From NCBI GenBank assembly GCA_938001995.1, contig CALLAV010000148.1, positions 1 through 11,840 on the forward strand: a DNA stretch of 11,840 bases, read 5' to 3'. Source of the DNA: an uncultured Amylibacter sp. (lineage in GTDB: Bacteria > Pseudomonadota > Alphaproteobacteria > Rhodobacterales > Rhodobacteraceae). The stretch's first letter is position 1; each line of letters begins with the position of its first letter. Under the pieces are notes generated by a model. That model searched no databases, was not told where the DNA came from, and worked only from the letters and a program-made list of their open reading frames with translations. Below, in pieces: positions 2,435 to 11,840 of this stretch. Position numbers and translations under genes: made by a program.

Positions 2435-2464
2435 TTGACAGGCTCCGCGCTTTGGAGATTTATT
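2435..2464 (+). promoter_or_regulatory. candidate sigma-70 promoter of the molybdoenzyme operon
   Basis: A perfect -35 hexamer TTGACA (2435-2440) is followed after 18 bases by TTTATT (2459-2464), a 4/6 match to the -10 consensus. Transcription would start near 2471 and leave a leader of about 25 bases before ATG 2495. The same TTGACA supplies a TTG that opens a longer reading frame, but as a -35 box it would lie outside the transcript, which supports the ATG start. No convincing terminator is seen after the kinase stop (2371-2373), so read-through from upstream is also possible. Confidence 0.4.
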
Positions 2465-2474
2465 TGTGTACAAA
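2463..2474 (+). promoter_or_regulatory. short palindrome TTTGT-GT-ACAAA, possible operator
   Basis: Two perfect 5-base arms (TTTGT 2463-2467 and ACAAA 2470-2474) are separated by two bases. The site overlaps the proposed -10 and start-site region, which is where a repressor would act. The operon's own MarR-type protein is the obvious candidate ligand. The TTGTnnACAA shape also resembles sites of GntR-family regulators, but no such gene is in view. A 12-base AT-rich palindrome can occur by chance, so confidence is low. Confidence 0.3.
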
Positions 2475-2494
2475 CAAACGACCGCCGAGACTCC

Positions 2495-3316
2495 ATGTAT
2501 TTACAACCTTCGACCCTTGAACAAGCGGTGTGCGATGCGCAAGTCGATGGAGTGCGCATTCTGGCTGGCGGGACGGATTTTTATCCCACCCAAGGCGATG
2601 TATTGCCCGATTTCCCAATTCTGGACCTAAGCCGCATAGCAGAAATATCTGGCGTGTCTCGGACAGAAAAAGGCTGGCGGATCGGCGCGACAACCACCTG
2701 GACGGATTTGGTTAGTGCCCCTTTGCCACGCGCCTTTGACGGATTAAAAGCCGCCGCGCGCGAAGTTGGTTCAATCCAGATTCAAAACGTGGCCACTTTG
2801 GCTGGCAATCTGTGTAACGCGAGCCCCGCGGCGGATGGCGTTCCACCGCTGTTAACCTTGAACACAGAAGTGGAATTGACTGGCCCCAATGGTCAGCGAC
2901 ACTTGCTCCTCGAACATTTTTTGAAGGGACCGCGCCAAACGGAACTGGCGGTTGGCGAAATTATGACCGCGCTGTACGTTCCTGACATCAAGGGCGCAAT
3001 TTCACGGTTTAGCAAACTCGGCAGTCGCAAATACCTGGTTATTTCCATTGCAATGGTGGCTGTCCTTTTGTGTATTGAAAACGACGCAATTACCGAGGCC
3101 CGTGTGGCCGTTGGCGCCTGTTCGCCTGTCGCGGTGCGATTGCCCACGCTCGAAGCGGATCTAATTGGGCAGCGTGATGTTCATGGTTTTGTAAAGCCGC
3201 TGCATTTGAATCCGCTTCAGCCGATAGACGACCTGCGCGGTTCGGCGGCGTATCGGTTGGATGTTGTCGTTCCTTTGATTGAACGCGCGTTGATCGCTGC
3301 GCTGGAGTCCGCGTAA
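2495..3316 (+). CDS. FAD-binding (medium) subunit of a xanthine dehydrogenase/CO dehydrogenase-family molybdenum hydroxylase
   Basis: The 273-residue product matches the usual length of CoxM/XdhB/YgfM-type flavoproteins. Two FAD-binding motifs of the family are visible: AGGTD (residues 24-28) near the N-terminus and TLAGNLCNASPAAD (101-114). The C-terminal part (~165-270) fits the CO dehydrogenase flavoprotein C-terminal domain. By family, this subunit takes electrons from the molybdenum centre via the [2Fe-2S] clusters of its partner and passes them to an acceptor such as NAD+, in the cytoplasm. I chose ATG 2495 because the 20 extra residues of the longer TTG frame (2435) do not resemble the family and overlap the probable promoter. 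Its SD is weak (GAGA, 4 bases upstream). The stop overlaps the next start by one base (TAATG), indicating coupled translation with the catalytic subunit. Confidence 0.9.
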   Translation: MYLQPSTLEQAVCDAQVDGVRILAGGTDFYPTQGDVLPDFPILDLSRIAEISGVSRTEKGWRIGATTTWTDLVSAPLPRAFDGLKAAAREVGSIQIQNVATLAGNLCNASPAADGVPPLLTLNTEVELTGPNGQRHLLLEHFLKGPRQTELAVGEIMTALYVPDIKGAISRFSKLGSRKYLVISIAMVAVLLCIENDAITEARVAVGACSPVAVRLPTLEADLIGQRDVHGFVKPLHLNPLQPIDDLRGSAAYRLDVVVPLIERALIAALESA

Positions 3317-6054
3317 TGGATGGCGGTGGCATTCCAATGATCCGCTTCTCGCTCAACGGCACAGAAGTCTCGGTGGCGGCCACCTCGGGCGAACGCCTAT
3401 CAGCATCCTTGCGGGAAAAATGTGATGCGAAAGATGTAAAAATCGGCTGCAACGCGGGTGATTGTGGGGCCTGCTCGGTTCTTGTGGACGGAGACGTCGT
3501 TTGTGCCTGCCTTATGTCAACAGCACAGGCGTCGGGTCGAAATGTTCAAACGCTTTCCGGCTTGCGCACCAGTGATGAGGGCAGAGCCCTGACCGAGTCC
3601 TTTCAAAACCACGGGGCCGCCCAATGCGGAATTTGCACGCCCGGTATGATGGTGTCCGCCATTGCATGGATGAGGTCGCAAACAGGAACGATTGAGGACG
3701 CACTTGGCGGAGTGTTGTGTCGTTGTACCGGCTATCGCAAAATACTCGACGCGGTGAACGAGGCCGCCCAGGGCGGCGCACCCGCGCGTGTCGGATCTGG
3801 TCAAATGGGCTCGTCCATACGCCGATTGGACGGCGCAGATAAGGTCGCTGGACTGGAACGATTTGGGGACGATATTGCAGGTGCCGACGTGGCTGTCGTG
3901 CATGTCATACGTTCTCCACATCCACGCGCGTCATTTCGCTTCGGTGATTTGGAAGGGTTTCGGACCCACACAGACGGAGTTTTGGCTGTCCTGACCGCCG
4001 CGGACATAAAAGGAAACAACTGTTTTGGCGTCATCCCGCCTTTTGCAGATCAGCCCGTTTTTGCAGTGAATGAAACCCGTTTCCAAGGCGAAGCGGTGGC
4101 CGCAGTGGTTGGAACACCTGCGCTGATAGCACGATTTAAAGATGTAGATTTTCCAATCACTTGGGAGGACCTTCCAAGCGTTTCAGATCCCCAAACAGCC
4201 ATGAATGACGGTGCACCAGAGTTGCATTCAGGGCGGGTCAATAACGTAATGATCAAGGGATTTGTGGCGTGTGGTGACAGCAAAGCCGCGCTAGATCGTG
4301 CGGTCCACAGTGTTTCTGGTACATTTGAAACAGGGTTCGTGGAACACGCCTATATCGAACCAGAAGCAGGGTTTGCAGAGATCGTAAATGGCCGTGTCGA
4401 GGTGCATGCCTGCACGCAGGCGCCTGTGATGGACCTAGAAAGTTTGGCAGAGATTCTAGGGATGGATCACAGCCAAATTCGCATTGTTCCCACTGGGGTC
4501 GGCGGTGGATTTGGATCAAAACTGGACCTATCCGTACAGCCCTTTTTGGCGCTGGCTGCACTGGCAATACAGGGTCCTGTGCGGATCAATTATTCACGCA
4601 GCGAAAGCATGCAAAGCACGACGAAACGGCACCCCGCAATCATGACGGTGCGGATTGGCGCGGACGCGGATGGGCGTTTATCAGGAATGCGATTTGACGG
4701 TGTGTTTAACACTGGGGCCTATGCGTCTTGGGGGCCGACGGTGGCGAACCGCGTGCCTGTCCATGCGTCTGGACCTTATGCCGTGCGCGATTACCGCGCC
4801 GAGGCGGTTGGCGTTCACACCCATTGTCCCCCCAGTGGCGCGTTTCGCGGGTTCGGCGTACCACAGGCTGCAATCGCGCAAGAGGTCCTGTTTGATGACT
4901 TGGCCGCTGCATGCGGATTGGATCCGCTGGAATTTCGGGTGAAAAACGCGCTTACAAACGGCGCAGCTACAGTCTGTGGACAAGTGTTTGATCAGGGCGT
5001 CGGCATTGGTGCCTGTTTCGAGGCGCTGCGTGAGTCATGGCACGATGCGCTCACTCAAGCAGACGATTTCAACCAAACCTCAACCACGATAAGACGCGGC
5101 GTTGGCATCGCGGCAGGTTGGTATGGGTGCGGAAATACCAGCTTGCCGAACCCGTCCACGATTAAGGCAGGCGTACGCGCAGATGGTCAATTTGTTCTGC
5201 ACCAAGGGGCAATGGACATTGGACAGGGGGCAAATACTGTTATTTCGCAGATATTTGCGCAGGCTTTGGGATTTGACGTCCATGACCTGGAGTTGGTTGG
5301 CGCTGACACGGATGTGACGCCAGATGCAGGCAAAACCAGCGCATCACGGCAAACGTTTGTGTCTGGAAATGCGGCGCGATTGTCTGGCCTTGCCCTGCGC
5401 GCCGAAATCTTGCGCCGTTGCAATTTGGACAGCAAAACAGCACGTATTTCATCGGGCGACGGTGTGATTGTTGTGAGTGATGGTTCAGTATTGAACGAAA
5501 TTTCACTCAGCGCACTCGATGTCAACGCAGATGGCTACGTTTTACACGCTGAAGAAACCTATGATCCACCGACTAAGCCGCTCGATCCTAATGGTCAGGG
5601 TGTGCCTTACGCGCAATTCGGCTATGCGGCGCATTTGGCGGTTGTTGAAGTCGACATGGAACTTGGCACGGTCACGCCTGTTCGCTTTGTTGCGGCTCAT
5701 GATGTGGGCCACGCGGTCAACCCGATGCTGGTCGAAGGGCAAGTGCATGGCGGAATTGCACAAGGGCTCGGAATGGCGCTGATGGAGGAATTTATTCCTG
5801 GCCGAACCGACAATTTGCACGACTATTTGATCCCGACCATTGGAGATATTCCGCCCATTGAAACAGCGATCGTCGAAGAGCCGGATGCCCATGGGCCGTT
5901 CGGTGCGAAGGGACTGGGTGAGCATGTTTTGATCCCAACAGCCCCCGCATTGGTTAACGCGATTAACCGTGCCGCGGGCGTGCAAATGCGCCGTGTTCCT
6001 GTAACGCCCGCACGATTACGGGCTGCGATTGTGGGGCGTGACAATGACCGTTAG
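3316..6054 (+). CDS. fused [2Fe-2S] / molybdopterin catalytic subunit of a xanthine oxidase-family hydroxylase
   Basis: The 912-residue product is a fusion of subunits that are usually separate. Residues ~8-155 form the small subunit. The ferredoxin-type cluster ligands are Cys45, Cys50, Cys53 and Cys65 (C-x4-C-x2-C-x11-C), and the helical-domain cluster ligands are Cys104, Cys107, Cys135 and Cys137. Residues ~165-905 form the large Mo subunit. It has GVGGGFGSK (394-402), FRGFGVPQ around Arg511, DIGQGAN (634-640) and GAKGLGE (863-869), whose Glu869 matches the catalytic base. By family, it hydroxylates a carbon next to a ring nitrogen using water. Fe-S/Mo fusion with a separate FAD protein is the E. 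coli XdhD/YgfM arrangement. The substrate is unknown, and the downstream 6-hydroxynicotinate reductase-like gene suggests nicotinate or a relative. GGAG (3304-3307) lies 8 bases before ATG 3316. An alternative ATG at 3337 would remove seven residues. Confidence 0.92.
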   Translation: MDGGGIPMIRFSLNGTEVSVAATSGERLSASLREKCDAKDVKIGCNAGDCGACSVLVDGDVVCACLMSTAQASGRNVQTLSGLRTSDEGRALTESFQNHGAAQCGICTPGMMVSAIAWMRSQTGTIEDALGGVLCRCTGYRKILDAVNEAAQGGAPARVGSGQMGSSIRRLDGADKVAGLERFGDDIAGADVAVVHVIRSPHPRASFRFGDLEGFRTHTDGVLAVLTAADIKGNNCFGVIPPFADQPVFAVNETRFQGEAVAAVVGTPALIARFKDVDFPITWEDLPSVSDPQTAMNDGAPELHSGRVNNVMIKGFVACGDSKAALDRAVHSVSGTFETGFVEHAYIEPEAGFAEIVNGRVEVHACTQAPVMDLESLAEILGMDHSQIRIVPTGVGGGFGSKLDLSVQPFLALAALAIQGPVRINYSRSESMQSTTKRHPAIMTVRIGADADGRLSGMRFDGVFNTGAYASWGPTVANRVPVHASGPYAVRDYRAEAVGVHTHCPPSGAFRGFGVPQAAIAQEVLFDDLAAACGLDPLEFRVKNALTNGAATVCGQVFDQGVGIGACFEALRESWHDALTQADDFNQTSTTIRRGVGIAAGWYGCGNTSLPNPSTIKAGVRADGQFVLHQGAMDIGQGANTVISQIFAQALGFDVHDLELVGADTDVTPDAGKTSASRQTFVSGNAARLSGLALRAEILRRCNLDSKTARISSGDGVIVVSDGSVLNEISLSALDVNADGYVLHAEETYDPPTKPLDPNGQGVPYAQFGYAAHLAVVEVDMELGTVTPVRFVAAHDVGHAVNPMLVEGQVHGGIAQGLGMALMEEFIPGRTDNLHDYLIPTIGDIPPIETAIVEEPDAHGPFGAKGLGEHVLIPTAPALVNAINRAAGVQMRRVPVTPARLRAAIVGRDNDR

Positions 6055-7453
6055 AGCTGAAAAAATCCGTTGTGATGCCTGTCCTGTGCTGTGTTTCATA
6101 GCCGAAGGCCGCTCTGGCGCTTGTGACCGTTACGCCAATCACGGGGGCGACCTTGTGCGGCTCGATCCGTTGACTGTGATCGACAATGGCGGGCCTGCGG
6201 TGCCGTTTCTAGGGGAAGATTGGAACGGCGATATTGTGCAAGGGCAACGGCCTTTTGTCACGGCCATTGGGGCGGGCACGACCTATCCCGATTACAAACC
6301 AGCGCCGTTTATCGTGTCTGCAGAAACACGCGGTGTGGACATGGTTACTGTCGTGACCGAAGGAATTTTCAGCTATTGCGGTGTGAAGGTTAAGATCGAC
6401 ACGGACCGTCATATCGGCGAAGAACGCGCCATCGTTCGTGTGGATGGAGAGGCCATCGGTCATGTCATGACCAGCGAGTATGGCAGTAAAATGCTGTCGC
6501 TTGGTGGGGTGGATCACTTGACGGGTGGGTCGAAAAAGGAAGGTCGCGTAACTTGCGATGCTTTGTTGGCTTTGTGCAATTGCGAGCCTGTTGAGATGGC
6601 AATCGACGAAGGAGCAGTTGTGATTGTGCAAGCAGGCAAGGCGCCTGTCATTGACGGTGATCGCGAAAAGCTGATGCGCGTGGGCTGTGGATCCGCCGCG
6701 ATTGGGATGTTTGCAGCGCAGTGGAAAGGCCATGCGGATGAGGTCATTGTGGTGGACGACCATATCACGGGAGTGCTGTCAGAGCACCAAGCGGGCGTGC
6801 TGCTGGACATTCCACCAAGCGGTATTCGCGTGGTCGGGCGCAGGTCCACGCCTGGGCGATATTTTCAAGTGGCAGAACCTGGAACGGGCTGGGGTGGCAC
6901 GGACATCCAAGACCCTTTGACGGTGATCAAAACGATCAATCCAAAACTGGCTTGGCCGGGTTTGCGGTTGTTCATGATTTCAACAACAGGCGAACAGTGG
7001 GCGTATTTTGAGTTGGACGAAAATCTGGTTCCGCAAAGTGCCGAACCCTCTGCCGCTTTGCGGGCCAGCGCTGAACGGGTTGCAGAAAACTGCGAACCAT
7101 CGGTGTGTTCCGTGTTGTTCATGGGAGGCGCTGGGGGATCCTTGCGTGCGGGCGTGACCGAGAACCCCGTGAAGCTCACCCGATCGGTGCGCGAAACGTT
7201 AACGCAAGTGACCATCGGCGGAGCGGAAGCCTATCTTTGGCCAGGGGGTGGCATCACCGTTATGGCGGACGTAACACAGATGCCAAGCAACGCCTTTGGC
7301 TACGTGCCGACACCCGCGTTGGTGGCCCCCATCGAATTCACCATGCGGCGCGAGGACTACGTTTCACTGGGTGGATATGTAGATGAAATTCAGGATGTGA
7401 ATGACGTTCTGAACGGGCAAGAGCGCCGCATCGGCGCAAAGGCTGCGGAATGA
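6044..7453 (+). CDS. 6-hydroxynicotinate reductase-like iron-sulfur protein
   Basis: The 469-residue product resembles proteins annotated as 6-hydroxynicotinate reductase, the enzyme that reduces 6-hydroxynicotinate to 1,4,5,6-tetrahydro-6-oxonicotinate in ring-reducing nicotinate catabolism (known from Eubacterium barkeri; the same intermediate is reported for Azorhizobium). The N-terminus has four cysteines spaced C-x2-C-x3-C-x9-C (Cys10, 13, 17, 27), fitting a [4Fe-4S] site. More cysteines occur at 112, 171, 178, 180 and 215. A Gly-rich segment (~361-369) and a Gly-rich WPGGG (399-403) lie in the C-terminal half. No signal peptide or TM segment is seen, so it is probably cytoplasmic. I chose ATG 6044 (GGGGCG about 6 bases upstream) over the in-frame TTG at 6029. 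It overlaps the hydroxylase gene by 11 bases and the next gene by 4. Family assignment is from recognition of the overall sequence. The true substrate could be another hydroxylated N-heterocycle. Confidence 0.75.
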   Translation: MTVRAEKIRCDACPVLCFIAEGRSGACDRYANHGGDLVRLDPLTVIDNGGPAVPFLGEDWNGDIVQGQRPFVTAIGAGTTYPDYKPAPFIVSAETRGVDMVTVVTEGIFSYCGVKVKIDTDRHIGEERAIVRVDGEAIGHVMTSEYGSKMLSLGGVDHLTGGSKKEGRVTCDALLALCNCEPVEMAIDEGAVVIVQAGKAPVIDGDREKLMRVGCGSAAIGMFAAQWKGHADEVIVVDDHITGVLSEHQAGVLLDIPPSGIRVVGRRSTPGRYFQVAEPGTGWGGTDIQDPLTVIKTINPKLAWPGLRLFMISTTGEQWAYFELDENLVPQSAEPSAALRASAERVAENCEPSVCSVLFMGGAGGSLRAGVTENPVKLTRSVRETLTQVTIGGAEAYLWPGGGITVMADVTQMPSNAFGYVPTPALVAPIEFTMRREDYVSLGGYVDEIQDVNDVLNGQERRIGAKAAE

Positions 7454-8256
7454 TCGCGGCGCGGATTTCTGGGGATCGGTTGCATTTGCAGCAGGGTCCA
7501 ATTGATTTGATTATCGGGGCTGAGGGCGCGCGCGATGCCGCGTTTGCCGCAGCAAGCACACGATTTTCAACGATACTGGAGGAGTTGGTGGCGGAATTGC
7601 CTGTATTGCGATCTGCGATGCCTGTTGCGCCCAAAGGTGTCGTTGCAAGGCGGATGGCGCGGGCCGCCGCTGGACACACAGAGTTCGTGACACCCATGGC
7701 TGCGGTGGCAGGTGCGGTGGCGGATGAAATCCTCTCTTCGATGAAAAATAACGATATTACAAAAGCTTACGTGAACAATGGCGGTGATATTGCGCTGTGC
7801 TTGCGCGATGGTTCGTTTGACGTGGGCATTGCAGGTTTGGATTCCTCACCGCTTGGTAAAGTGACGACCCGCGCAGGTGACGGGATCGGCGGGATTGCCA
7901 CCAGCGGGCGGGCTGGGCGCAGTTTATCGCGTGGAATTGCGGACAGCGTAACCGTTTTAGCAAGCTCGGCCGCACAAGCGGATGTTGCAGCCACGCTCAT
8001 TGCAAATGCGGTAAACGTGGAGTCTCCCCAAATTTCACGAAAACGGGCGTGTGACCTCGATCCGGACAGTGATTTGGGTGGGCGATTGGTCGTGACAGCG
8101 TGTAATCGTTTAGCGTTGAACGAAATTGAAGCGGCCCTCAGTGCGGGCAAAGCACGCGCGTTTGAAATGGTGCAAAGCGGGCGGATAAAATCTGCGTTTT
8201 TGGTGCTGCAGAGGCAGTCTTGTGTGATTGGAATGACGGAGTTGGCGGATGCCTGA
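7450..8256 (+). CDS. UPF0280 family protein (ApbE-like, COG2122)
   Basis: The product is 268 residues, and I recognise it as UPF0280, a family distantly related to the ApbE flavin transferases. Visible conserved segments are TPMAAVAGAVADEIL (81-95), VNNGGDIAL (108-116) and GIATSGRAGRSL around 148-159. These correspond in order to the Gly/Asp-rich flavin- and metal-binding region of ApbE proteins. No lipoprotein signal or TM helix is present, unlike typical periplasmic ApbE, so it should act in the cytoplasm. Its biochemical function is not established. It begins in an ATGA overlap with the reductase gene, with AAAGG 7 bases upstream. The tight coupling suggests it serves the reductase or the hydroxylase, for example in flavin insertion, or is itself a pathway enzyme. 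I saw no clear ApbE flavinylation motif in the neighbouring proteins. Confidence 0.82.
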   Translation: MIAARISGDRLHLQQGPIDLIIGAEGARDAAFAAASTRFSTILEELVAELPVLRSAMPVAPKGVVARRMARAAAGHTEFVTPMAAVAGAVADEILSSMKNNDITKAYVNNGGDIALCLRDGSFDVGIAGLDSSPLGKVTTRAGDGIGGIATSGRAGRSLSRGIADSVTVLASSAAQADVAATLIANAVNVESPQISRKRACDLDPDSDLGGRLVVTACNRLALNEIEAALSAGKARAFEMVQSGRIKSAFLVLQRQSCVIGMTELADA

Positions 8257-8833
8257 TGTGGTGGTTCGTAAAGTGTTAACAATGGTGGAAGAAATCCACC
8301 ATGAATTTGGCCCTGCGCCCGACGCGCCGTTGCGCAAATGCGCAACTGTTGCGGTGATCAAGAACCCGTTTGCAGGCGCTTATCACGCTGATATCGCTGG
8401 ATTTATGGAAGACCTTAAGCCCCTGGGCTTACAGATGGCGCAAAAGGGTCTTGCCGCGCTTGGTGGGGATAAGAATGACGTTCAAGGTTACGGCAAGGGT
8501 GCAATTGTCGGACTGGACGGCGAGCTGGAACACGGTGCGCTGTGGCATGTACCAGGGGGGTATGCGATGCGCGAATTGCTGGGTGATGCAGCCGCGATTG
8601 TGCCGTCGACCAAGAAGGTCGGCGCGATGGGCGCGCGCCTTGACGTTCCGATCACGCATATCAACGCAAGCTACGTGCGCAGCCATTTTGACGCGATGGA
8701 AATTGGGCTAAACGATGCGCCGCGCGCCGGCGAGATGGCGCTAATCCTCGTGATGAGCACGGGCGCGCGTATCCATGCGCGTGTCGGGGGATTGGCGGCA
8801 CAGGATATTGTTGGGAAGGATGGTCTGCGATGA
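8249..8833 (+). CDS. amino acid synthesis family protein (PF06684/DUF1185), divergent paralogue 1
   Basis: The product is a 194-residue soluble protein of PF06684, whose solved members have a variant Bacillus chorismate-mutase fold and no proven activity. Recognisable segments are VAVIKNPFAG (34-43), GELEH (91-95), VPSTKK (118-123), LDVP (131-134), YVRSHFD (142-148), NDAPR (155-159), RVGGL (178-182) and the terminal GKDGLR. It is a clear paralogue of the next gene, with the same length. It has lost some residues that the second copy keeps, for instance HVPGGY in place of HPKLG after GELEH, and a more hydrophobic stretch before RVGGL. This suggests a changed role, such as one half of a heteromer. 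GGAG lies 7 bases upstream, and the gene overlaps the UPF0280 gene by 8 bases. Confidence 0.85.
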   Translation: MPDVVVRKVLTMVEEIHHEFGPAPDAPLRKCATVAVIKNPFAGAYHADIAGFMEDLKPLGLQMAQKGLAALGGDKNDVQGYGKGAIVGLDGELEHGALWHVPGGYAMRELLGDAAAIVPSTKKVGAMGARLDVPITHINASYVRSHFDAMEIGLNDAPRAGEMALILVMSTGARIHARVGGLAAQDIVGKDGLR

Positions 8834-9414
8834 CATTAAATATAAGAAAAACAGCAGTTTGGGTAGAGGAAACGCATATCGAAATGGGCAAACCAATTGC
8901 GCCTGCAACACGCAAAGCCGTGGCTGTGGCCGTGATTGAAAACCCATTTTCGGGCAAATATGTGGAGGATTTGACACCACTTATGGACATCGGAGCAGAA
9001 TTGGGCGCACTGCTGGGCGAGCGCTGTGTTGCGGCACTTGGGATCACGCCAGAACAAGCCGAAAGTTACGGCAAAGCAGCGATGGTTGGCGAAAACGGCG
9101 AGTTGGAACATGCCGCTGCCATCTTGCACCCAAAGCTCGGTGCGCCTTTGCGCAAAGCGGTGGAAAAAGGCGCGGCTTTGGTGCCGTCTTCCAAGAAAAT
9201 GGGCGGACCGGGACAGGATTTAGATGTGCCGCTCGGTCACAAAGACGCCGCCTACGTGCGCTCTCACTTTGACGGAGTGGAGGTGCGCATGAACGACGCA
9301 CCGCGGCGCAATGAAATCCTTGTGGCGGTGGCTGTCACTGACAGCGGGCGCCCCTTGCCGCGCGTCGGCGGGCTGGAACATAAGGATGCAGAAGGAAAGG
9401 ATGGGCTGCGCTGA
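8830..9414 (+). CDS. amino acid synthesis family protein (PF06684/DUF1185), paralogue 2
   Basis: This is the second 194-residue PF06684 protein, starting in an ATGA overlap with the first, with AAGGA 9 bases upstream. It shares VAVIENPFSG, SYGKAAMVG, GELEH, VPSSKK, LDVP, YVRSHFD, NDAPR, RVGGL and GKDGLR with paralogue 1. About half of the aligned C-terminal 75 positions are identical without gaps, pointing to an old tandem duplication. By eye it is the more family-typical copy (HPKLGAPLRKA, EVRMNDAPRRNE, GRPLPRVGG). No signal peptide or cofactor motif is seen. The conserved His, Lys-Lys, Asp and Ser-His-Phe-Asp positions are candidate active-site residues. Function is unknown. Within this operon it could handle the reduced ring product, but that is inference only. 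Confidence 0.87.
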   Translation: MTLNIRKTAVWVEETHIEMGKPIAPATRKAVAVAVIENPFSGKYVEDLTPLMDIGAELGALLGERCVAALGITPEQAESYGKAAMVGENGELEHAAAILHPKLGAPLRKAVEKGAALVPSSKKMGGPGQDLDVPLGHKDAAYVRSHFDGVEVRMNDAPRRNEILVAVAVTDSGRPLPRVGGLEHKDAEGKDGLR

Positions 9415-9821
9415 TGTACAAGCTCGACGAACAAGTTGGGTATATTTTGCGCCTTGCCAGTCAGCGGCATGCGACGGTTTTTAACAAGCACTCCGATTTG
9501 GGCCTCACACCCACGCAGTTTTCGGCGCTTGTGCGCGTGGCGGAAATGGGAAGCTGTTCACAGAATCTGTTGGGGCGGCGCACAGCGATGGATGTGGCAA
9601 CCATCAAGGGTGTTGTTACGCGACTGAAAGCAAAGGGTTTTGTGGAGCTCGGTACTGATCCGGGGGACAAACGGCGCACTGTTGTTTCGCTCACGGATAA
9701 GGGGCATGAGGTGATCGCGCAGTTGCACAGTTTTGGTCAAGCGGTCACGGATGAAACGCTTGCGCCGCTTAATACTGCGGAACGCAAGGTTTTTCTGGAG
9801 ATGCTGACGCGGTTGACCTAG
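9414..9821 (+). CDS. MarR-family transcriptional regulator
   Basis: The 135-residue product shows the MarR fold order: an N-terminal dimerisation helix (1-25), a winged helix-turn-helix (~31-95) with LTPTQFSALVRV, a recognition-helix region MDVATIKGVVTRL (59-71) and the wing signature DPGDKRRTVVSLTDKG (82-97), then C-terminal dimerisation helices. MarR proteins are usually ligand-released repressors of neighbouring genes. NicR of Pseudomonas putida, a MarR protein, responds to 6-hydroxynicotinate, so an aromatic pathway intermediate is a reasonable effector guess. The gene lies inside the operon, sharing one base with the preceding stop (TGATG), so it is probably autoregulated. Its SD (AAAGGA, 9396-9401) is 12 bases upstream, a little far. 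Candidate operators are the palindrome at 2463-2474 and the inverted repeat at 9817-9841. Confidence 0.88.
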   Translation: MYKLDEQVGYILRLASQRHATVFNKHSDLGLTPTQFSALVRVAEMGSCSQNLLGRRTAMDVATIKGVVTRLKAKGFVELGTDPGDKRRTVVSLTDKGHEVIAQLHSFGQAVTDETLAPLNTAERKVFLEMLTRLT

Positions 9822-9841
9822 GATTTTAGTCGAATCCTAGG
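9817..9841 (+). promoter_or_regulatory. perfect 9-bp inverted repeat overlapping marR stop and downstream SD
   Basis: CCTAGGATT (9817-9825) and AATCCTAGG (9833-9841) are exact inverted copies around a 7-base loop. The left arm contains the TAG stop of marR (9819-9821). The right arm ends inside the AGGAG Shine-Dalgarno (9839-9843) of the following gene. In RNA this would form a stable hairpin masking part of that SD, and a ribosome terminating on marR would be expected to melt it. In DNA it could be a dimeric repressor site. It is not a rho-independent terminator, because no T-run follows. Confidence 0.6.
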
Positions 9842-9843
9842 AG
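9839..9843 (+). promoter_or_regulatory. Shine-Dalgarno AGGAG of the DMSO reductase-family gene
   Basis: AGGAG lies 7 bases before ATG 9851, a near-ideal placement that fixes the start. Its first three bases are paired in the hairpin described at 9817-9841. Confidence 0.7.
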
Positions 9844-9850
9844 CGAGCCT

Positions 9851-11840
9851 ATGGCCGAAGATTATCCGCTGACATCGACCCATTGGGGTGTTTACCGCGC
9901 AGAAGTTGCGAATGGTAAACTGGTTAAACTGCATGATTTTGAAGACGACGTGGACCCAAGCCCCATTGGCAACGGAATCGTAGAGGCCCTTGATGCGCCA
10001 AGCCGTGTAACAGCACCAATGGTGCGACGGTCTTGGCTGGAAAATGGAGCGGGCTCACGTACAGATTTGCGTGGCAAAGACACGTTCGTAGAGGTCACGT
10101 GGGATGAAGTGAACAAGCTGGTTGCTGACGAATTGCGTCGTGTGCAACGCGATCACGGACAAAGCGCAATTTATGCGGGGTCCTATGGCTGGGCCTCTGC
10201 GGGGCGGTTTCATCATGCACAAAGCCAGATGAAACGGTTTTTGAACTGCATTGGCGGGTTTACGTCTTCGGTGAACACCTATTCTTTTGCTGCGGCTGAG
10301 GCGATTGTGCCCCATATTTTGGGAAATTACCGAGATCACATGAACCGCACGACAAGCTGGCGTTCCATTGCGCAGGCAGGCGAATTGGTCGTTGCCTTTG
10401 GTGGCATTCCTGTAAAAAACGGCCAGATCGAAGCAGGTGGAACAGGCCGCCATGTACAGCGTGAAGGACTACGCGCCGCGCGGTATGCTGGTGTGGAATT
10501 CGTGAATATCAGCCCGCTGCGCACGGATATGGAAGCGGAGTTGAACGCCGAATGGTGGGCAGCGCGGCCGACGTCGGATGTGGCGATTATGTTGGGTTTG
10601 GCACATACGATTTACACCGAGAACCTGCACGATTCCGCGTTCCTGAACGCGTATTGCAGCGGCTTTGATCGGTTTGTTCCCTACCTGATAGGGGAGGTCG
10701 ATGGGCAGCCAAAGAATGCAGATTGGGCGAGCACACTGTCCGAAATTCCCGCAGACGATATCCGTGACTTGGCGCGTAAAATGGCGGTTAAACGAACCAT
10801 CGTTTCCGTAAGTTGGTCCCTAACGCGGAGCCATCATGGAGAACAACCGTTCTGGATGGCGATAACGCTTGCTGCGATGCTCGGACAGATCGGTTTGGAA
10901 GGCGGTGGCGTTGCCTTTGGCTTCAGTGCTGAAAACTCCATCGGCGGGGACACGCGGCTGACACCGGGGGCGGGTTTACCAATGGGCCGCAATCCAGTTT
11001 CAGAGTTTATTCCCGTGGCAAGAATAGCAGAATTGCTAGAAAATCCGGGAGGTGAATGCCAGTATGACGGCAAATCCTTGCAGTTTCCTGACATTAAGCT
11101 GATTTGGTGGTCTGGCGGAAATCCATACCATCACCACCAAGATTTGAATCGCTTGGCGCAAGCCTGGCAGAAACCTGACACCATCATTGTGAATGATTGG
11201 TGTTGGACTGCGACGGCAAAACGCGCTGATATTGTATTGCCTGTCACAACCCATGTGGAGCGAGACGATCTACAATTGTCTCAGCGTGACCCCTATATTG
11301 TTGCGATGAAAAAGGCCGTTGAACCGCCAGAAAACGTACGCGGGGATCATCAAATTTTCAAAGGAATCGCGGCAGAATTGGGTGTCGAAACTGCGTTCAC
11401 TGAAGGGCGATCTGAAGAAGAATGGTTGCGGTGGCTTTGGGATAAAACCCGTCAGAATCCTGAAGCGGAAGGGATGGGTCTGCCCGATTGGGACGAGCTG
11501 CAAGAAATGGGCTGGTACAAGACGCCCGAACAGGAAAAGGCGACCGTAATGATGCGTGAATTTCGCGCAGATCCGCGTGCAAATGCGCTCTCCACGCCGT
11601 CAGGAAAGATCGAGATTTATTCGGATGTGGTCGCAGGCTTTGGCTATGCGGATTGCCCGGGCCATGCAGTTTGGCAGACGCCTTATGAATGGCTCGGCAA
11701 TGTGGACAAACATCCATTGCATATGATGAGCAATCAGCCTCGCAACAAGTTGCATTCGCAGTTGGATCAAGGGGCGGTTTCGGCATCTGGCAAGTTGAAG
11801 GGCCGCGAACCTGTAGTTTTAAACACAGCAGATGCAAAAG
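9851..11840 (+). CDS. cytoplasmic DMSO/biotin-sulfoxide reductase-family molybdopterin oxidoreductase (3' end cut by window)
   Basis: 663 codons are open to the window edge with no stop. Family members are about 740-830 residues, so roughly the last 100 are missing. The molybdopterin guanine dinucleotide-binding fold is recognisable from THWGVY (10-15), SYGWASAGRFHHAQ (111-124), HHGEQPFWM (328-336), SGGNPYHHHQDLNRL (421-435), WTATAKRADIVLP (452-464), TPSGKIEIYSD (582-592) and SNQPRNKLHSQ (627-637). Ser116 in GWAS matches the serine Mo ligand of DMSO reductase. There is no N-terminal Fe-S cysteine cluster, as expected for the DorA/TorA/BisC branch. There is no Tat leader either, so it stays in the cytoplasm like BisC. 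Known relatives reduce S- or N-oxides, while pyrogallol-phloroglucinol transhydroxylase shows that the wider superfamily also handles aromatic hydroxyls. It follows marR by 29 bases, probably in the same transcript. The substrate is unknown. Confidence 0.9.
   Translation, partial: MAEDYPLTSTHWGVYRAEVANGKLVKLHDFEDDVDPSPIGNGIVEALDAPSRVTAPMVRRSWLENGAGSRTDLRGKDTFVEVTWDEVNKLVADELRRVQRDHGQSAIYAGSYGWASAGRFHHAQSQMKRFLNCIGGFTSSVNTYSFAAAEAIVPHILGNYRDHMNRTTSWRSIAQAGELVVAFGGIPVKNGQIEAGGTGRHVQREGLRAARYAGVEFVNISPLRTDMEAELNAEWWAARPTSDVAIMLGLAHTIYTENLHDSAFLNAYCSGFDRFVPYLIGEVDGQPKNADWASTLSEIPADDIRDLARKMAVKRTIVSVSWSLTRSHHGEQPFWMAITLAAMLGQIGLEGGGVAFGFSAENSIGGDTRLTPGAGLPMGRNPVSEFIPVARIAELLENPGGECQYDGKSLQFPDIKLIWWSGGNPYHHHQDLNRLAQAWQKPDTIIVNDWCWTATAKRADIVLPVTTHVERDDLQLSQRDPYIVAMKKAVEPPENVRGDHQIFKGIAAELGVETAFTEGRSEEEWLRWLWDKTRQNPEAEGMGLPDWDELQEMGWYKTPEQEKATVMMREFRADPRANALSTPSGKIEIYSDVVAGFGYADCPGHAVWQTPYEWLGNVDKHPLHMMSNQPRNKLHSQLDQGAVSASGKLKGREPVVLNTADAK

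Follow-up and report, generated by a model that had tools for sequence, protein, structure and literature searches.

A gene cluster for nicotinate catabolism was described in 2012 from Azorhizobium caulinodans (AZC_2804-2790), Bradyrhizobium (B. japonicum), R. palustris, and strain SG-6C, and the passages describing it tie it to the catabolism of nicotinate and 6-chloronicotinate (PMC3511419). The product of the enamidase step is given in the relevant part of a separate report as (S)-2-formylglutarate (PMC9304392). Here we compare with these systems an 11,840-base stretch of DNA (the window) from an uncultured Amylibacter sp. of the Rhodobacteraceae, which spans the entire contig CALLAV010000148.1 (C148) of assembly GCA_938001995.1, a 2.7-Mb genome that is 72% complete. 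The window carries eight collinear plus-strand genes (2495-11840) downstream of a promoter-like gap, and we consider it highly probable, from homology and gene content, that they represent, within the Rhodobacteraceae, the reductive nicotinate cluster of the Azorhizobium/Bradyrhizobium type. The original prediction for this DNA had described an undescribed catabolic operon that opens with hydroxylation and ring reduction of the Eubacterium barkeri/Azorhizobium type. Its eight genes have the families and positions it gave, and homology supports the opening steps, but a matching cluster was already in print, as far as the described passages of PMC3511419 go. The pathway itself is already known; the window adds a member with a lineage-specific insertion, and what is gained is two testable proposals for orphan protein families.

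The probable nicotinate cassette and its relatives

One gene of the window encodes a 6-hydroxynicotinate reductase-like protein (Hnr), and we scanned genome contigs with a six-sequence Hnr alignment, taking as loci the best 80 of at least 593 confirmed stretches and matching their open reading frames (ORFs) to reference proteins at an identity of at least 35%. Neighbors of Hnr in these 80 loci are the molybdopterin (MoCo) subunit (70) and the flavin adenine dinucleotide (FAD) subunit (66) of a xanthine dehydrogenase (XDH)-type hydroxylase, two PF06684 paralogues (B in 66 and A in 59), a MarR regulator (53), an enamidase-type amidohydrolase (42), a ferredoxin-NADP reductase (20), a VanA-like Rieske protein (14), a HydA-like protein (9), and a NicB-like protein (6). 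Because the cassette recurs in this way, its gene order is not due to chance. Co-occurrence of all eight families had been suggested as a check on the original prediction; it extends to the cassette and not to the terminal BisC-like gene, which is found in none of the 80 loci. The features of the window are as follows.

2435..2475, plus strand: promoter/operator region, with a -35 element TTGACA (2435-2440) and a -10-like element (2458-2464), both assigned by eye
2495..3316, plus strand: XDH-type FAD subunit of the presumed nicotinate hydroxylase (PF00941, PF03450)
3316..6054, plus strand: fused 2Fe-2S and MoCo hydroxylase subunit (PF01799, PF00111, PF01315, PF02738, PF20256)
6044..7453, plus strand: 6-hydroxynicotinate reductase-like protein, Hnr (annotated homologues; N-terminal CxxCx3Cx9C motif)
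7450..8256, plus strand: UPF0280 protein of predicted ApbE fold, proposed Hnr flavin maturase (NF003322, predicted fold, pairing with Hnr)
8249..8833, plus strand: PF06684 paralogue A (PF06684, 230.7 bits)
8830..9414, plus strand: PF06684 paralogue B, SPO0826/2QTP subfamily (PF06684, 248.6 bits)
9414..9821, plus strand: NicR-like MarR regulator (PF12802/PF01047)
9851..11840, plus strand: BisC/TorA-like enzyme of the dimethyl sulfoxide (DMSO) reductase family, a subclade-specific insertion (family profile matches)

Six overlapping junctions link genes 1 to 7, from the FAD subunit through MarR, and a 29-nucleotide gap precedes the BisC-like gene, which is interrupted by the contig end and truncated at its 3' end. 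The Pfam domains and PDB matches of the hydroxylase fit an XDH-type nicotinate hydroxylase, and among the matches of the fused subunit are three chains (A, B, and D) of 3HRD, the E. barkeri nicotinate dehydrogenase. Annotated plasmid relatives carry a hydroxylase variant called nicA/nicB and a MarR protein called NicR, and the MarR of the window is 48% identical to that of locus L137, annotated nicR. Nine cysteines are invariant across 49 Hnr sequences; Hnr had no match in Pfam or NCBIfam at an E value of 0.001, and comparison of its model with PDB folds gave no confident match. The named organisms among its 19 closest database rows (n = 6) are Amylibacter (3), Neptunicoccus (2), and Rhodobacteraceae (1). 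In the single-contig genome G026 (C1:2969820-2971228) Hnr was matched as two pieces, through a frameshift or a sequencing error.

The original prediction saw no enamidase and proposed that uncharacterized families replace the known later enzymes, or else that later genes lie beyond the edge; the evidence favors the latter. The amidohydrolase of the 42 loci noted above matches the E. barkeri enamidase 2VUN (E = 1e-106), some of its members being just 48 to 50% identical and perhaps paralogues (L041, L070, and L072), and the host has its own copy on contig C47 (976-2136; 85% identity with a Sulfitobacter protein). The same-genus genome G471 has on one contig the order kinase, FAD subunit, MoCo subunit, Hnr, UPF0280, two PF06684 genes, MarR, BisC, a desaturase-like gene, further ORFs, and then, on the minus strand, an isochorismatase-like gene and the enamidase. 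When reversed, C47 begins inside the desaturase-like gene and keeps the families in the order of G471 down to the enamidase. Because C47 and G471 share this order, the host enamidase should lie a few kilobases past 11840, and its absence from the window should be due to the contig edge; the region past 11840, which the prediction had advised inspecting, would thus run from the desaturase-like gene through to the enamidase. ATPase 1 of an ATP-binding cassette (ABC) transporter is found in 36 of the 80 loci, and L009 has the transporter whole; for the host, the only possible trace of it is an ATPase-like fragment (40% identity) adjoining the enamidase on C47.

From these homologies, the cassette would be an operon under MarR control that serves the Azorhizobium-type reductive route, with nicotinate as the probable substrate. 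The XDH-family hydroxylase would convert nicotinate to 6-hydroxynicotinate, which Hnr would reduce to 1,4,5,6-tetrahydro-6-oxonicotinate with electrons probably supplied by the ferredoxin-NADP reductase that neighbors it in some relatives. The enamidase encoded on the other contig would open the ring to give 2-formylglutarate, and one or both PF06684 proteins may act on this 2-formyl-dicarboxylate, most likely by aiding the decarboxylation that yields glutarate semialdehyde, en route to glutarate. UPF0280 may be an ApbE-fold maturase that places a flavin on Hnr, and the BisC-like gene would be an insertion dispensable for the core route.

The enzymes at both ends of this route vary among the loci. 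At an identity of at least 45%, enamidase is found in 42 of the 80, a HydA-like hydantoinase/oxoprolinase in 9, both in none, and neither in 29, and the presence of the HydA-like protein suggests an alternative lactam- or ring-opening enzyme. HydA-like genes, often with HydB-like ones, were seen where enamidase is out of view in L005, L007, L065, L067, L069, L076, L077, L080, L083, L085, L086, and L138; the plasmid locus L008, outside the 80, has an enamidase plus a distant HydA/HydB pair (43% and 36%). A NicB-like gene replaces the XDH pair in 6 of the 80 (5 at an identity of at least 45%); its homologue in L006 has MoCo plus cytochrome c domains, and the 2Fe-2S partner of the NicB-like protein can be seen in L076, L083, and L086. 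We suggest that the hydroxylase (XDH or NicB-like) and the ring-opening enzyme (enamidase or HydA-like) are swapped around a stable Hnr-UPF0280 core. The VanA/dicamba-demethylase-like Rieske oxygenase found near the cassette in 14 loci (L013, L017, L019, L020, L022, L027, L038, and others; one such protein is encoded at L003:16185-17252) is often followed by an ABC transporter and might supply the route with an N- or O-methylated precursor.

Upstream of the cassette, an imperfect palindrome, TTTGTGTACAAAC (2463-2475), overlaps the -10-like region and is a candidate MarR operator. It occurs within three mismatches upstream of the FAD subunit gene (xdhM) in 41 of 70 regions, compared with ∼3% of 1,400 random segments from the same loci, where the 70 include the window and plasmid loci and the motif was picked from the window after three relatives had been viewed. 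In the host genome, a looser version of the palindrome was matched six times at five places and a control pattern once; of the six matches, only one is at the operon (C148:2462-2475). The ORF of the FAD subunit was listed from a TTG at 2435 that overlaps the -35-like TTGACA, and its start is likely the ATG at 2495. On the far side of the promoter-like gap lies a PAS hybrid histidine kinase (154-2373), which is outside the cassette; a 57% homologue of this kinase occupies the same place in G471 (L132) and does not in the same-genus genome G475.

Some observations weigh against the assignment to nicotinate catabolism. The top single PDB match of the hydroxylase is the aldehyde oxidoreductase 1DGJ (350 bits), and 3HRD comes ahead only if the scores of its separate chains are added together. 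Hnr owes its name to how close homologues are annotated in databases and on plasmids, in a comparison that did not include the E. barkeri sequence. The 29 loci with neither enamidase nor HydA in view also belong here, some of them on short contigs, as does the candidate operator, which has no exact match near the C47 enamidase and no match to the looser pattern on C47.

UPF0280 and its pairing with Hnr

UPF0280 is almost strictly paired with Hnr. Two genome samples, one from the class and one from the phylum, place it just downstream of Hnr in 52 of 52 Hnr-positive genomes and give a strong UPF0280 match in none of the Hnr-negative ones. Excluded from these counts were 2 of 34 genomes in the class Hnr search (G047 and G163; E values of 6e-4 to 8e-4 over 33 to 35 positions), 3 of 35 in the class UPF0280 search (G098, G108, and G128; at most 29.5 bits), and 1 of 25 in the phylum UPF0280 search (G430; 22.1 bits), while G077, whose UPF0280 gene is divided over contig ends, was retained despite a score below the cutoff. 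Among the 80 loci, UPF0280 is a neighbor in 77 and immediately follows Hnr in 59, and the 57 loci flanked on each side by 6 kb or more contain it in 56 cases, compared with 36 for enamidase. It is missing from L043, L054 (a 3-kb contig), and L060, where direct tblastn searches found nothing significant, and in L059 (named Granulosicoccus) it lies ∼9 kb upstream of Hnr.

The UPF0280 protein of the window scores 323.8 bits against NF003322 (cutoff, 290) and 23.4 bits against the Pfam ApbE family PF02424, below the cutoff of 25.6. Its predicted fold is that of the ApbE flavin transferases, and the structures that it matched bear the names flavin transferase or flavin-trafficking protein. The Hnr of E. 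barkeri carries a covalent flavin. Because of this flavin and the ApbE fold, together with the pairing, the evidence suggests that UPF0280 is a maturase of Hnr. It retains the serine of the ATSG motif and the aspartate of the AD motif, as judged by motif and not by residue-level superposition.

The mechanism of ApbE, as set out in the part of PMC12052999 that covers it, includes a target motif in the partner protein, D-x-x-[S/T]-G-A-[S/T], and a general-base histidine. Measured against this description, the maturase proposal meets several difficulties: the target motif does not occur in Hnr, [ST]GA[ST] is found in 0 of the 9 window proteins, and the window's UPF0280 has no histidine in the segment from its ATSG motif to its VTV motif. 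The pairing also has gaps, since L060 has no UPF0280 in 14.8 kb and the same-genus genome G478 (79% complete) is an apparent exception, being Hnr positive while the 16-kb stretch examined, 3.8 kb of which is downstream of Hnr, shows no UPF0280. In this stretch (L144; G478:C465:1-16000) hydroxylase genes lie upstream of Hnr, UPF0280 and PF06684 are both out of view, and other ORFs occupy the downstream 3.8 kb. The missing motif and histidine would also fit a flavin-binding electron-transfer subunit or FAD chaperone of Hnr, with which the tight pairing is equally compatible; set against this are the names of the matched ApbE-fold structures and the covalent flavin of the E. barkeri enzyme, and we regard a subunit or chaperone as a serious possibility that nevertheless falls short of being probable.

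The PF06684 pair

Both window paralogues exceed the PF06684 (AA_synth) cutoff of 27 bits, and paralogue B matches 2qtp_A (E = 1.2e-105), the structure of SPO0826. An alignment of 27 members, drawn from the window, from further Hnr clusters, and from clusters unrelated to these, has 15 invariant columns, including the lysine of YGK, the Glu-His pair of GExEH, and arginines, all 15 of which paralogue A retains. The portion of PMC2954203 that deals with this family describes a conserved His/Arg/Glu cavity at the dimer interface and, for SPO0826 (2QTP), neighboring genes for a branched-chain amino acid (BCAA) transporter.

Gene neighborhoods link PF06684 to hydrolases. The class sample (1 of 42 genomes, G050, was excluded as below the PF06684 cutoff) has 19 places with an enamidase-type hydrolase (E value of 1e-60 or better, 35 to 85% identity), and PF06684 lies within 3 kb at 12 of them, two being in genomes without Hnr and two (G189 C1 and G001 C88) on a contig other than that of the genome's Hnr. 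At ten plasmid places inspected, of 387 records, neighbors of PF06684 include an alpha/beta hydrolase, a flavin reductase, a luciferase-type monooxygenase, and an aldehyde dehydrogenase. Such clusters were seen in L117, L119, L120, and L121 (with variants in L118 and L122), from Leisingera, Rhizobium, Chimaeribacter, and Acinetobacter, and we take their layout to resemble that of the trigonelline tgn cluster. Because these neighborhoods share a hydrolase that would yield a 2-formyl-dicarboxylate, this analogy suggests that PF06684 proteins act on 2-formyl-dicarboxylates, possibly as decarboxylases.

Running counter to this proposal, 7 of the 19 enamidase-type places have no PF06684 within 3 kb (one is the host's own contig break), and PF06684 is missing from 3 of 32 Hnr-positive genomes. 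The fit to formyl acids is also less clear where PF06684 lies next to an aminotransferase/M20 pair or next to a fumarylacetoacetase-family hydrolase. The family might instead stimulate an aldehyde dehydrogenase or serve another step, without acting on 2-formylglutarate: the homologue TgnF is described in the pertinent passages of PMC7913881 as stimulating TgnE-dependent succinate semialdehyde oxidation, although attempts to find the same effect for HcdD failed. Faster decarboxylation upstream would likewise stimulate semialdehyde oxidation, and PF06684 also occurs where no aldehyde dehydrogenase is annotated in the stretch (L123 and the Hnr clusters L003 and L008), so that we lean away from this alternative while giving it appreciable weight.

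Combining both families, we tentatively propose that UPF0280 would form a new clade of ApbE-fold flavin transferases that are cytoplasmic, with Hnr as sole client and a non-ApbE target site, for which the highly conserved Hnr segment GGSLRxGxTxNP is a candidate, and that PF06684 would be a 2-formyl-dicarboxylate family that frees a semialdehyde by decarboxylation, with 2-formylglutarate as candidate substrate here and 2-formylsuccinate in trigonelline-type routes. Our confidence in this combined proposal, low from the start, was lowered slightly because of the G478 check. We found no function in the literature for either of these two families of a known pathway, although PF06684 structures have been in print since 2010. 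The near-strict pairing with Hnr and the ApbE fold make the function of UPF0280 a one-experiment question, and the linkage of PF06684 to hydrolases suggests a chemistry common to the breakdown of nicotinate and trigonelline-type compounds.

The BisC-like insertion and comparison with known systems

An Hnr match was found in 13 of 33 same-genus genomes (host included), and 9 of the other 12 were inspected (G471, G475, G472, G473, G483, G494, G496, G477, and G478, leaving out G482, G486, and G499). The BisC-like gene is present in G471, G475, and G496; G472, G483, and G494 have MarR followed by the desaturase-like gene and no BisC; and in G473, G477, and G478, whose Hnr is 64 to 74% identical to that of the window, neither gene was seen. 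Because of this distribution, together with its absence from all 80 loci, the BisC-like gene is a lineage-restricted, subclade insertion, and the pairing of two molybdoenzymes in the original prediction holds for the host and the three genomes that share it and not for the cassette at large.

A full-length orthologue (L132) resembles DMSO/trimethylamine N-oxide reductases (1EU1; E = 4.9e-196), and the TIGR00509 cutoff of 1017.55 is reached neither by it (952.4 bits) nor by the truncated window protein (813.4 bits). These relatives are S/N-oxide reductases, a Tat-type leader was not seen by eye, and the gene follows MarR by 29 nucleotides on the same strand, as it also follows MarR in three same-genus genomes, all of which would suit a working pathway member that, for example, reduces a pyridine N-oxide (nicotinate N-oxide) to feed the operon. 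We think this unlikely given the 80 loci without BisC and the same-genus carriers of the cluster in which the desaturase-like gene comes next after MarR (L139, L141, and L142).

In the clade to which the window belongs, the FA_desaturase-family protein comes after MarR or BisC (L132:15789-16727, L131:5119-5877, L133, L139, L141-L143, and L009); its nearest NCBIfam model is an arginine hydroxylase (107.6 bits against a cutoff of 380), suggesting at most a hydroxylase-like role. A perfect 9-bp inverted repeat, CCTAGGATT/AATCCTAGG (window 9817-9841), spans the MarR stop and the BisC leader; it was not seen in L132 and is degraded in L133.

That the substrate is another N-heteroaromatic acid (homarine, picolinate, or an N-methyl pyridinium) is improbable: BCAA-type ABC transporters beside the cluster, the VanA-like oxygenase (14 of the 80 loci), and a conserved pathway for homarine catabolism published in 2026 (mentioned in a passage of PMC13390433) would favor it, but Hnr, an E. 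barkeri-type enamidase, partners annotated nicA/nicB and nicR, and the link of the printed cluster to nicotinate and 6-chloronicotinate, where PMC3511419 describes it, all indicate nicotinate.

Compared with the flavin transferases ApbE, Ftp, and FmnB, UPF0280 is shorter, has no signal peptide apparent by eye, and lacks a histidine in the segment that holds the ApbE general base, and its proposed client Hnr lacks the target motif. The TgnF protein of the Acinetobacter trigonelline pathway is alike in being a PF06684 homologue at a semialdehyde step (PMC7913881, in the passages on TgnF). The tgn-like plasmid clusters have one PF06684 copy beside the monooxygenase, flavin reductase, hydrolase, and aldehyde dehydrogenase, whereas the window has two beside Hnr. 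The E. barkeri nicotinate fermentation cluster shares homologues of nicotinate dehydrogenase (3HRD) and enamidase (2VUN), and Hnr by name only; it has separate MoCo and FeS chains where the window has a fused MoCo/2Fe-2S subunit, and none of its known later-step genes is in the window. The closest likeness in content is to the Azorhizobium-type cluster, which, as described in passages of PMC3511419 and compared by that description rather than by genomes, encodes the enzymes of the first three steps along with an ABC transporter and conserved proteins of unknown function, the two unknown proteins not being named there. The host clade differs from that cluster in having its enamidase on the opposite strand, beyond the BisC-like insertion and the desaturase-like gene.

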